Virus record (IMG/VR): IMGVR_UViG_3300043543_000020
Span: 1-42,092 of that record
Length of the DNA stretch: 42,092 nucleotides
Reading direction: 5' to 3' (one strand)
From: a virus
A model generated the notes under the pieces. That model worked only from the letters and a program-made list of their open reading frames with translations. It did no database searches and had not been told where the DNA came from. The position numbers and the translations under genes are program-made. The first letter of the stretch is position 1. The number at the start of each line of letters is the position of its first letter. Shown here in pieces: positions 3,577 through 42,092 of this stretch.

Positions 3577-3607
3577 GTTTTTGGTTGATAAAGATACATA
3601 TAAGTAG
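3577..3607 (+). promoter_or_regulatory. Promoter-like element, copy A
   Basis: GTTTTTGGTTGA followed by an A-rich stretch and ATATAAGTAG. A closely related block lies at 41432-41463, before the tRNA-Met and right-end structured RNA. Here it precedes the folded leader of the scaffold-capsid operon. TATAAG (3599-3604) could be a -10 hexamer with GTTTTT 16 bases upstream as a poor -35. Because the match to the sigma-70 consensus is weak but the block is repeated, a phage- or alternative-sigma promoter is inferred. Confidence 0.5.
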
Positions 3608-3612
3608 GGAGC

Positions 3613-3775
3613 GCCTCCAACCTGTGGGCATTAGCAGGCGTCCATCCCGCGCGGGTTGGAGGCTTTCGCAGCTACTGGGAAGTGGGAACTAGGGATGGGG
3701 ACGCCGTAATCCCGGTAGCTGCACACAAGTCCGAGAAGTGGGACCGAGGCCATGCGATAAGGGTACAGTTCCCAC
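3613..3775 (+). promoter_or_regulatory. Structured 5' leader with predicted pseudoknot
   Basis: This fills most of the 313-base gap between portal and scaffold genes; no coding signal is seen in it. Stem 1 pairs GCCTCCAACC (3613-3622) with GGTTGGAGGC (3654-3663). Stem 2 pairs AGCTACTGGGA (3670-3680) with TCCCGGTAGCT (3710-3720), one pair being a U-G wobble in plus-strand RNA. GTGGGAAC (3682-3689), in the loop of stem 2, is perfectly complementary to GTTCCCAC (3768-3775), which ends 6 bases before the AGGAGGG ribosome binding site. That makes an H-type pseudoknot next to the start of the head operon. Regulation of scaffold/capsid translation is inferred, not shown. Confidence 0.6.
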
Positions 3776-3787
3776 GATTCAGGAGGG

Positions 3788-4660
3788 ATGATGGGTTCTT
3801 TGCGCGATGCTATCGCGGAAGCTGTTGCGGGTACCGAGACCGAGGGTACAGAGGTTACCGAGGCCACGGAGGAGGAAACCGCTGCCCCGCCGGACGCTGA
3901 GGCGGAGGGTGAGCCGCAGGGACACGCCGACGACGGTGAGGAGGTTGGGTCCGAGGCCCCAGATGAGGGTACAGATGACACTCCTACCGAGTATTTCGGC
4001 CTAGACCTGTCTGGCCTGGAGCCCGAACTCAGGGCCTCCATCATGGAGGAACTGAGGAAGCGAGACGATTACATCGGTCGGCTTCTACGAGAGAAGTCCA
4101 CTTCGGAGCTGACGACCGAGCAAGAGGAAGCCCTTGGCGAGGCCGCGGAGGAGGAGCTTTCCGACGAGGAAATCCTTAAGCTCCTTGGTCTCGACCCCGA
4201 GAGTAACCCTTGGGACGAGCAGACTGCCAAGATTGCCGTTCCCCTGTTCCGGCGACAGCTGGAGCAAGAGCGGTCCATCGCAGCTCTTATAGAGATGCAG
4301 GAGTTGGCAGAGATAGACCGTACCTGGCGCTCGACCCTCTCCGCACTGGAGAAGGAGTTCGGGTCGCTGCCGAAGGAAATCACCCACGACATGGTGATGG
4401 AGTTCGCGGCGGAGGAAGGCATAGCCAGCCCGCTTGACGCCTACTGGCGTATCATGGGACCGGCTAGGACCATCCTCACCAAGGCGGTTGACGAGGCTAA
4501 GACGAAGAAGGCTGCGGACAAGCCCAAGCCTCAGAAGCCTGTCATGGCTCGCCCCAGCGCCGAGCAGACCGCAGAGGAAGACATCCCTCTCGGCGGCGAG
4601 GTGCGGGACGCCACTCGGAAGGTAGCCAAGGACATCCTGTCTAAGCTCGGTCTCTCGTAG
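3788..4660 (+). CDS. Putative head scaffolding protein
   Basis: Likely scaffold that directs procapsid assembly and is then lost. The 290-aa protein lies between portal and major capsid genes, the classical scaffold position. Residues 1-80 are extremely acidic and Thr/Glu/Ala rich, so probably disordered. Residues 100-240 are predicted helical with many Glu, Leu and Lys. The C-terminus is basic-rich (KTKKAADKPKPQKP near 240-253), the usual coat-binding end of scaffolds. The start at 3788 follows AGGAGGG; a second in-frame ATG is the next codon. The call is based on order and composition, as scaffolds diverge too fast for motif recognition. Confidence 0.8.
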   Translation: MMGSLRDAIAEAVAGTETEGTEVTEATEEETAAPPDAEAEGEPQGHADDGEEVGSEAPDEGTDDTPTEYFGLDLSGLEPELRASIMEELRKRDDYIGRLLREKSTSELTTEQEEALGEAAEEELSDEEILKLLGLDPESNPWDEQTAKIAVPLFRRQLEQERSIAALIEMQELAEIDRTWRSTLSALEKEFGSLPKEITHDMVMEFAAEEGIASPLDAYWRIMGPARTILTKAVDEAKTKKAADKPKPQKPVMARPSAEQTAEEDIPLGGEVRDATRKVAKDILSKLGLS

Positions 4661-8366: not shown

Positions 8367-9149
8367 ATGGCAGCTTCTACCAAGATATTCTCCAGTCAGG
8401 GAACCTTCCAATCCCATGAGTATCTTATTCTTGGTGCCTATGGTGCGGTACCGGGTGACTATGGCATCGGCGTTCTGTTGGTACCGAGCCCTGAGACGGG
8501 CGGATTCTACAGCCACGAACCCTTTACAGGAGATATGACGCTGCTGGGAACGTTCGCAGGCTACAAGGTCTATTGGTGGTACGTGGCGACAGAGATATAC
8601 GACTGGCTTGGCACCGGCTCCGCTGTATCTTTGATTACTACGGGAGGTACTGCCAGGTTCGGATATGCGGTGTTTCACAACCCAGATGGGTTTTTGACGC
8701 CGCATACCGACCCCAGCGATACGATGGAGGCCGCCGAGCCGACGCTACCGGCAAGTGTCACGGTATCGGCGGATGACTCAGACAGCGACCAGTCCGTGAA
8801 CCTAGCCATATTCCTGGGAACCGTGAGCAACGGCTACTGGCCACACGAAGTTGATACACATGGCCTGGCCTACGGTTTTAAACTTAGCTCTGGGTTCTCT
8901 TCGGCTCCGAGCATATTCGGCTACTGGTCCGAAGATTTAGGTGAGCCTGCGCAGACCGTAGACTTCGACCAAGTCGCAAGCGCAGACAACATCCCGGACA
9001 GTTTCAGGATGTTCCGCATCTCACTCCGCGTGAACAGCAAGGTTCCTACCCCACCTGGAGCCCCAAAGCTGAAGCTAAAGAAGGCTCAAATAACAGAGCT
9101 TCCTTACCAAGTACATACACAACTATTGGGAGCACAAGGATGGGTATAG
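8367..9149 (+). CDS. Tail appendage protein with shared C-terminal tail (paralogue 1)
   Basis: 260 aa, predicted beta-rich, no enzyme motif. The N-terminal half contains AVPGDYGIGVLLVPSPE, a PGD-then-hydrophobic-strand pattern common in phage jelly-roll appendage domains. The last 30 residues (PGAPKLKLKKAQITELP then VHT) closely match the end of the next protein, while the bodies differ. This suggests a conserved docking peptide on variable receptor-facing domains. The next gene overlaps its last 10 bases. A tail fibre or receptor-binding role is inferred. Confidence 0.65.
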   Translation: MAASTKIFSSQGTFQSHEYLILGAYGAVPGDYGIGVLLVPSPETGGFYSHEPFTGDMTLLGTFAGYKVYWWYVATEIYDWLGTGSAVSLITTGGTARFGYAVFHNPDGFLTPHTDPSDTMEAAEPTLPASVTVSADDSDSDQSVNLAIFLGTVSNGYWPHEVDTHGLAYGFKLSSGFSSAPSIFGYWSEDLGEPAQTVDFDQVASADNIPDSFRMFRISLRVNSKVPTPPGAPKLKLKKAQITELPYQVHTQLLGAQGWV

Positions 9150-34576: not shown

Positions 34577-34650
34577 TGGGCACAGGCTAGCTGGTAGCTG
34601 GCGGCTGTCTTATAAACAGCTGGAGCGGGGTTCGATTCCCCGGTGCCCAA
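34577..34650 (+). tRNA. tRNA-Ile (anticodon UAU)
   Basis: A complete cloverleaf can be drawn: acceptor TGGGCAC / GTGCCCA (seven pairs), D-arm GCTA/TGGC with GCTGGTAGC loop, anticodon stem GCTGT/ACAGC with loop CTTATAA (TAT at positions 34-36), variable loop TGGAG, T-arm CGGGG-TTCGATT-CCCCG, discriminator A. CCA is not encoded. It reads AUA, a codon this phage uses heavily. Confidence 0.93.
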
Positions 34651-34664
34651 CTTACGCCGCTCCT

Positions 34665-40701: not shown

Positions 40702-40816
40702 GCCGAAAGACCTAAGACCAAGGCACTAGGCAACTTTAGGTCTTTCGGACGCTGTGTGGGCGAGGGCGCAGGGTGTACGGTCCCCAGTGCAGTCGCGGTC
40801 CCAGTGGGGGGACCGC
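40702..40816 (+). promoter_or_regulatory. Right-arm control cassette 3
   Basis: CCGAAAGACCTAA (from about 40702) pairs with TTAGGTCTTTCGG (ending about 40749), again with TAAGACCAAGG inside. TACGGT follows at the place of the other cassettes' -10, then a GCGGTCCC/GGGACCGC hairpin (40795-40816) and AAGGGAGG. It is therefore the clearest hairpin version of the repeated cassette. Confidence 0.55.
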
Positions 40817-40835: not shown

Positions 40836-41027
40836 ATGGCCACTACCGTCGAGATTCAGGTGGAGGGCGCGCTTGTCGCGACCACGATGGTCCTGAACCC
40901 GCGGACGTTCAAGACGGGGTCCGTCGGGTACTTCGGGACCGGCAAGGTTGAGACGGGCAACCCGGGCGAGCGGTACCAGGCGACCATCAGCCTTGTCCGT
41001 ATCGGCAGCAAGCCCGCTACCAAGTAG
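40836..41027 (+). CDS. Small beta-rich protein (63 aa)
   Basis: ATG 40836 after AAGGGAGGGCCC. Begins MATTVEIQVEGALVATTMVL and contains FKTGSVGYFGTGKVE and YQATISLVRIGSK: alternating strands, a compact beta fold resembling small single-gene phage proteins of unknown role. Its own cassette upstream and a strong terminator 17 bases downstream make it a monocistronic, probably highly expressed unit. Confidence 0.7.
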   Translation: MATTVEIQVEGALVATTMVLNPRTFKTGSVGYFGTGKVETGNPGERYQATISLVRIGSKPATK

Positions 41028-41043
41028 TCCGGTCCCCCTCAGG

Positions 41044-41076: not shown

Positions 41077-41209
41077 GTGCCCGCTCGACCCCGGAGCGCG
41101 CCGAGCACGACGACCGGCCGAAATCACCCACCGGGACCGAACTTCACATGCCGGGGCGCCCTCCTCTTCCCCCTCTCGACCTTAGTAGGTCTAAAAACAA
41201 TCCGAGATG

Positions 41210-41238
41210 TTGCCGGGGCAGCAGAAAAAGGTTATTAT
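41210..41238 (+). promoter_or_regulatory. Promoter of the 41304 gene
   Basis: TTGCCG (41210-41215), 17-base spacer, TATTAT (41233-41238), in an AT-rich patch. The fifth 21-bp motif begins 14 bases downstream, where a repressor would block initiation or early elongation. Confidence 0.6.
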
Positions 41239-41251
41239 GCAGGCAAAACTG

Positions 41252-41273
41252 ATAGCGTTTCCTGTTCTGCAGT
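41252..41273 (+). repeat. 21-bp motif, copy 5 (diverged)
   Basis: ATAGCGTTTCCTGTTCTGCAGT differs only in the central bases from the other copies (TAGCGTTTC N4 TCTGCAGT kept). It overlaps the start region of the transcript from the promoter at 41210. Confidence 0.65.
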
Positions 41274-41303
41274 GAATCGCATTTTTGGCCTAAAAGGACA
41301 AAA

Positions 41304-41417
41304 ATGGAGCTTCGAAAACGCTCTGTAAAACGCCGGGCTGCCGCCGGAAGAACGCTCTGCAAGACGGCCAAGTCACGCCCAGGGCCGGGACCGGTGCCAA
41401 AGGGCCCGGAAGTTTAA
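41304..41417 (+). CDS. Short basic peptide (37 aa)
   Basis: ATG 41304 with AAAAGGACAAAA upstream, behind the promoter at 41210. Begins MELRKRSVKRRAAAGRTLCK and ends VPKGPEV; strongly basic N-terminal half. The clear initiation signal and promoter support it, but the size makes it uncertain. It could bind nucleic acid. Confidence 0.45.
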   Translation: MELRKRSVKRRAAAGRTLCKTAKSRPGPGPVPKGPEV

Positions 41418-41431
41418 AGAACCGAACCTGA

Positions 41432-41463
41432 GTTTTTGGTTGAAAAACTTTCTATATGAGTAG
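41432..41463 (+). promoter_or_regulatory. Promoter-like element, copy B
   Basis: GTTTTTGGTTGA, an A-rich run, and ATATGAGTAG, matching copy A at 3577 over the outer blocks with one base difference in spacing. It would drive the tRNA-Met and the right-end folded RNA. It lies 14 bases after the preceding small gene. Confidence 0.5.
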
Positions 41464-41486
41464 AGGCAGTTTCATAGCCGCCTCAG

Positions 41487-41526
41487 GGCGAGCCGCCGAT
41501 TAGGCCAGTGGTCGGAGGCTTCGCCC
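41487..41526 (+). other. Long hairpin upstream of tRNA-Met
   Basis: GGGCGAGCCGCCGA (41487-41500) pairs with TCGGAGGCTTCGCCC (41512-41526) with one mismatch and one bulge, loop TTAGGCCAGTGG. It ends 4 bases before the tRNA, so it could guide 5' processing or be part of a larger fold. Confidence 0.55.
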
Positions 41527-41530
41527 ACTT

Positions 41531-41601
41531 GGCAGCGTGGTGGAGGGGCACCATGCGGGGCTCATAACCCCGAGGCGCAGGTTCGAGTCCTGCCGCTGCG
41601 A
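41531..41601 (+). tRNA. tRNA-Met (CAU), initiator-like
   Basis: Acceptor GGCAGCG / CGCTGCG with a G-G mismatch at pair 1-72; D-arm GTGG/CCAT with a 7-base loop; anticodon stem CGGGG/CCCCG with loop CTCATAA; T-arm GCAGG-TTCGAGT-CCTGC; discriminator A; no encoded CCA. The unpaired 1-72 and the three G-C pairs in the anticodon stem are initiator features, but the D-arm pair 11-24 is of elongator type. A lysidine-modified tRNA-Ile2 (CAU) cannot be excluded. Length 71. Confidence 0.78.
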
Positions 41602-41617
41602 CTAGGTCTACGAAGCA

Positions 41618-41687
41618 GCAGTGGTCCGAGGGGCCGCTGCGACGACCTCTTGGTAGTGGCAGTGGTCCGAAGGGCCGCTGCGACGAC
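41618..41687 (+). repeat. Tandem duplicated 29-nt hairpins
   Basis: Two copies (41618-41646 and 41659-41687) differ at one base. Each begins with a ten-pair stem GCAGTGGTCC / GGGCCGCTGC, loop GAG or GAA. Two pairs are U-G only in plus-strand RNA. The 3' part, CCGCTGCGAC, equals the 3' end of the preceding tRNA-Met, so they may be partial duplications of it. Confidence 0.75.
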
Positions 41688-42060
41688 GAAAAAGGTTGAT
41701 GAACCGCCATATCTAGCGGAACAAGCCTCGAACCCCGAGTCTAGGGGAACGGCCTTTAAGGCTACGGGCGAGCCAGTAACCGTACGCGTCGCTACACGGG
41801 CCCGGCGCTTGCAACGGTTCCTCGTCGGAGGCAACAGAGTAGAACCTAGAACCCTAGGCCAACTATACCCTTTTTCTTTAGAGGGTAGGTAAAGTGCCTG
41901 GGTTCGGTTCTGAAGGAGAACACTTCTGGTTCTGGTTCTCCCGCCGGTCCTGGAAAGGACGGCGGCTGAAGGTTCCTTCCCCGGAGAGAACATCCGGTTG
42001 GACAACATAGGATGTATGAGGGAGGAAGGAACCGGAAGCTGCCGTCCCTCATTCGTACTT

Positions 42061-42076
42061 TCGAACGTTTGTTCGA
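42061..42076. promoter_or_regulatory. LexA (SOS) box match
   Basis: TCGAACGTTTGTTCGA, a perfect inverted repeat of TCGAAC with a four-base spacer, fits the actinobacterial/Gram-positive LexA box (CGAAC N4 GTTCG). It lies in the terminal stem at 42038-42091, and could instead simply be an RNA hairpin (loop GUUU). Confidence 0.5.
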
Positions 42077-42092
42077 TTCCGGGACGGCAGCA

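Follow-up and report, generated by a model that had tools for sequence, protein, structure and literature searches.

Does the right end of this phage genome encode a large structured RNA, and what might such an RNA do? The window analyzed here is the whole 42,092-base viral record IMGVR_UViG_3300043543_000020, which carries a large terminase gene near its start (20-1516) and whose 3' end falls inside a noncoding stretch. A preliminary description had noted about 0.6 kb without a gene at this end; the stretch is actually longer, beginning at 41028. One relative, contig IMGVR_UViG_3300036768_000311 (L002), was found through a search with the large terminase, which is 97% identical. The noncoding region recurs in L002 at 79-85% identity (blastn) and there, too, contains the tRNA-Met and the 3' folds. 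Between the two phages, identity is about 93% for genes on the terminase side and 70-87% for those on the other.

A folded noncoding region at the right end of the window

The features of the region, together with a related element near the left end, are as follows.

3579-3787, plus strand: second copy of the promoter-like element and the structured leader that follows it, up to the gene at 3788
40836-41027, plus strand: gene for a 63-amino acid protein, the last ahead of the noncoding region
41125-41200, no strand assigned: conserved noncoding DNA element (GGGACCG, a C-rich run and GACCT-N4-AGGTC), outside the RNA
41435-41463, plus strand: promoter-like element, with the second copy near 3580
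41464-41530, plus strand: hairpins between promoter and tRNA, in both phages with differing sequences (z -3.5 in the window, -4.2 in L002)
41531-41602, plus strand: tRNA-Met, CAT anticodon (Rfam 56.9 bits), also in L002
41611-41688, plus strand: large wobble-rich hairpin of two 41-nt near-repeats, in the window only
41690-41835, plus strand: sequence-conserved core, with a predicted junction that pairing of GCCTC (41725-41729) with GAGGC (41828-41832) would close
41840-41912, plus strand: long interrupted hairpin, on which independent folds of window and L002 agree
41915-41941, plus strand: hairpin GGAGAAC...GUUCUCC, with a loop 6 nt shorter in L002
41941-42091, plus strand: 3' three-way junction, on which independent folds of both phages agree (41943-42088); its helices are 41943-41955/42077-42088, 41957-41967/42037-42047 (end pair U-A in the window, C-G in L002), 41971-41980/42024-42033 and 42061-42066/42071-42076

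The tRNA-Met of the preliminary description was confirmed by both ARAGORN and Rfam. ARAGORN also called a tRNA-Ile (TAT anticodon, 34577-34651), which is absent from the Rfam list at the gathering score. Homologues of the 63-amino acid protein occupy the same position in L002 and in the more distant L147 and L152. An intergenic inverted repeat, CCGAAAGACCTAA...TTTAGGTCTTTCGG, lies at 40704-40750, and a related sequence is found around 39586. A protein-coding reading of the noncoding region was rejected, as open frame lengths differ between the window and L002 and their alignment contains indels on the 1-, 2- and 77-nt scale. An integration site was also rejected, neither phage record carrying a tyrosine or serine integrase.

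Folding energies were compared with those of dinucleotide shuffles and are expressed as z-scores. Folding of 41420-42092 yields -326.6 kcal/mol on the plus strand (z -11.6), compared with z -8.1 for the minus strand; the part beyond the tRNA (41603-42092) scores -7.4 and -4.6, respectively. Since the stretch just before the promoter-like element (41130-41435) has z about 0 in both the window and L002, the fold signal starts at that element. More than eight stems are predicted, in agreement with the original count of at least eight consecutive ones. The proposed plus-strand character holds for the region as a whole, which folds better on that strand, but not for the final 150 bases, where near-perfect inverted repeats give the minus strand an equally good fold. 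As for the wobble pairs that were said to work only in plus-strand RNA, the most wobble-rich hairpin (41611-41688) scores z -6.9 on the plus strand and -1.9 on the minus strand, but it is absent from L002. The near-repeats that form this hairpin (78%; 41592-41673) start with the 3' end of the tRNA-Met, and by their sequence they look like a recent duplication of the tRNA end.

Conservation of the fold in a relative

Compensatory change in relatives had been named as a check on the structure. In our test the fold was predicted from the window alone and substitutions were placed at random; two sequences carry all of the covariation. Four pairs of this fold are changed on both sides in L002, where 0.76 were expected (p 0.005), and 11 pairs are broken, fewer than the 16.4 expected (p 0.023). 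Because compensatory double changes are above and broken pairs below expectation in this one relative, we conclude that the region is a real plus-strand structured RNA. In the distal helix 41862-41869/41884-41890, three pairs are changed on both sides with pairing kept.

Consensus folding of the two phages was scored by shuffling alignment columns: z lies between -5.3 and -7.5 over 41801-42050, and from 41701 on the plus strand outscores the minus strand at every step. The coding controls have a mean of about -1; the lowest value among them, -5.3, is the leader of the head operon itself (see below). The consensus fold contains eight double changes, of which two fall within the tRNA and another two in the poorly aligned stretch before it. 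The best-supported part of the RNA is 41840-42091. Covariation and consensus folding together give good support to the 3' domain, weak support to 41690-41840 and none to the 41611-41688 hairpin, which L002 does not have. The middle part (41690-41840) is conserved in sequence, with a local fold no better than chance (z +0.26 and -0.63). Near-identity in the last 150 bases exceeds the neighborhood level only in part, given the roughly 93% identity of the terminase-side genes.

These results also bear on the idea that the region is a decayed tRNA cluster with little remaining function, that is, hairpin-rich debris at a place where relatives carry several tRNAs. There are tRNA clusters at the same position in L152 and L149, and copies of the tRNA 3' end open the 41611-41688 hairpin; debris, however, would not be expected to preserve pairing through double changes or to retain long blocks without change, and we regard this origin as very unlikely.

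Four segments of the 3' domain, CCGCCGGUCC (41941), GGACGGCGGC (41957), GCUGCCGUCC (42038) and GGGACGGCAGC (42081), have two alternative pairings: a nested fold (first with fourth, second with third) and a sequential fold (first with second, third with fourth). The alternative with 42038-42048 paired to 42081-42091 is weaker by 2.8 kcal/mol in the window and 5.9 kcal/mol in L002. The sequential fold could form first during transcription, and the modeled pairings make a structural switch possible; the sole covarying pair among these segments, 41967-42037, is compatible with both folds.

Flanking elements and position before the small terminase gene

The window stops before the small terminase gene (TerS), whose position is therefore invisible from it. 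L002 reads past this point: TerS lies 44 bases after the last stem, with a ribosome site GGGAAAGG and a start at 3595, and no convincing terminator or second promoter was found between the last stem and TerS in L002. At the other end of the RNA lies the promoter-like element (TTTGGTTGAAAAACTTTCTATATGAGTAG at 41435), of which a clear second copy, TTTTGGTTGATAAAGATACATATAAGTAG at 3579 (reading TTTTTGGTTGATAAAGATACATATAAGTAG near 3580), precedes the head genes. L002 retains both, and the earlier statement that the head operon shares this element is thus correct. TTGA-type elements of looser likeness, read by eye, occur upstream of TerS in L006, L007, L011 and L147. Judging from these sequences, the 41435 element probably acts as a promoter, and the RNA would start just after it.

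Downstream of that second copy there is likewise a folded leader (3605-3787; z -3.2 in the window, -3.45 in L002), with two paired changes relative to its L002 counterpart (8586-8770). This leader consists of two hairpins. Their loops carry complementary sequences in both phages (GGCGUCC in the first, GGACGCC in the second) and may form a kissing loop or pseudoknot.

Structured 5' untranslated leaders are known from phage late mRNAs. We propose, with a probability of about 0.5, that the late DNA-packaging transcript opens with this RNA as a long, folded, tRNA-bearing untranslated 5' leader. Its synthesis would probably start just after 41435-41463, pass through the tRNA-Met and about 490 bases of folded RNA, and continue into TerS; host tRNA-processing enzymes would cut out the tRNA, so that the remaining mRNA would begin with a compact folded domain. 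Most simply, this domain would shield the packaging mRNA from decay, pace its translation, or both. The proposal draws on the observed fold and its strand, conservation in one relative, the shared promoter-like element, the position before TerS in L002, and a fold signal that begins at the element and not before it. Like structured late-mRNA leaders, the RNA would, by the sequence layout in L002, begin at a late-type promoter, be untranslated and end just before a ribosome site, and the head operon of the same phage appears to have such a leader too. It is much longer than these, however, and carries a tRNA; more than 600 nt is long for a leader, and the conserved core (41690-41840) suggests more than mRNA protection. 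Since the second late leader is also folded, with paired changes, a shared role of both in late expression is plausible, whether in mRNA protection, translation pacing or polymerase action; an antitermination RNA of the HK022 put type was also considered.

The inverted repeats might instead function as DNA, as a cos/pac or terminase-binding site beside TerS, with the RNA fold as a by-product. Their place directly before TerS and the equal folding of both strands in the last 150 bases would suit such a site, but the preference of consensus folding for the plus strand throughout 41701-42050, the compensatory changes and the wobble pairs all argue against it, and we give it little credence. A better cos candidate is the upstream element at 41125-41200, because it is common to distant relatives: it precedes TerS in L006, L007, L010, L011, L147 and L152 and has no RNA-fold signal, and is a candidate cos or terminase-binding site. 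Copies of the element lie at L002 2650-2720, L006 2701, L007 3223, L010 52, L011 4336, L147 3452 and L152 503, and it can still be recognized in relatives whose terminases are only about 45-60% identical. A further GGGACCG is found at window position 41387, and L003 has two copies of GGGACCGATGC (107 and 193). Two AACGCTCTGTAAAACG-type direct repeats 34 nt apart (41317-41366; kept in L002 at 2835-2889) sit ahead of the promoter-like element, in the stretch without RNA fold.

Comparison with known RNA classes and wider relatives

The preliminary description had likened the region to GOLLD and ROOL, phage RNAs that are often found near tRNA islands and form RNA cages (PMC12286853). The likeness is confined to setting and size, in that the RNA is borne by a phage, lies beside a tRNA and is large; in a covariance search of Rfam the region matched only tRNA, both at the gathering score and at E up to 10, and the same was true of its relatives. 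GOLLD gave no match under either setting, and in the genome search the GOLLD control genomes matched only below cut-off. ROOL was absent from the window and L002 at E up to 10, a result that rests mainly on cmscan as the genome-search control was silent; HEARO gave no match, the whole-library cmscan returning tRNA only. With genome-search controls weak or silent, remote homology to GOLLD or ROOL keeps some probability, though cmscan at relaxed thresholds also returned neither family.

GOLLD (RF02032) resembles the RNA described here in being phage-borne, longer than 500 nt, conserved in its 3' and variable in its 5' part, and associated with tRNA, including tRNA-Met: GOLLD env-38 lies downstream of a Met-tRNA, and the GOLLD linker can itself contain tRNAs (PMC12286853). 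Unlike GOLLD, the RNA lies between a putative late-type promoter and TerS without an end signal of its own, and it has no match to the GOLLD model. ROOL (RF03087) is likewise a large structured phage RNA often near tRNA islands (PMC12286853), but its model does not match, and it is a widespread family whereas the present RNA has two known members.

The main rival to the leader interpretation is a free-standing large noncoding RNA similar to GOLLD or ROOL, freed after tRNA processing as a compact body that perhaps self-assembles. Its size, elaborate fold and phage location, a tRNA on the 5' side as in GOLLD env-38 (PMC12286853), and a conserved core in addition to the conserved 3' domain all fit this idea. 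The lack of a convincing terminator or second promoter before TerS, the lack of an Rfam match, and the recovery of one relative only by sequence-pattern and protein searches of viral contigs make it doubtful, and the position, from a putative late-type promoter to 44 bases before TerS, is no less suited to an operon leader than to a separate RNA. Still less probable is a new class of large tRNA-bearing phage RNAs that would leave the packaging transcript as free RNA bodies, resembling GOLLD and ROOL by convergence. A large plus-strand structured RNA beside a tRNA, as first described, is supported by its folding, by the difference between strands and by covariation with the sole relative found, but the two known sequences cannot establish the new class that was suggested with it.

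Further members were sought widely. Exact patterns from four conserved stretches located the RNA among viral contigs only in that of L002, the other matches having no similarity beyond the pattern itself; the same search of prokaryote genomes gave one match, by chance, and a search of genomes by terminase alignment gave none. There was no blastn match among isolated phages. A covariance model of the 3' domain, run on 31 related or candidate loci and eight whole viral records, found only the window and L002, along with weak reverse-strand echoes of their inverted repeats. Neither sequence comparison nor the covariance model revealed the folded RNA in L006, L007, L010, L011, L147, L149 or L152.

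L003, the next relative, does have a structured stretch before TerS (z -4.2 on the plus strand, -2.0 on the minus strand) and shares with the window and L002 the hairpin TCGAACGTNTGTTCG, which among 236 loci is otherwise confined to the window and L002 copies; this favors the leader interpretation, while the alignment of L003 to the RNA was not beyond shuffles. Against that interpretation, the TerS leaders of the distant relatives L006, L007, L011 and L147 are 120-180 nt long and have no fold signal. The picture suggested by these sequences is of a leader region that changes quickly, gaining and losing tRNAs and folded RNA.

Folded leaders apparently stand at the start of two late operons in one phage, suggesting that late expression in it relies on a common mechanism. 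Few large structured phage RNAs are known and their roles are obscure; this one is linked by its position with the terminase genes, a tRNA and a putative late-type promoter, and so offers a concrete, testable setting.
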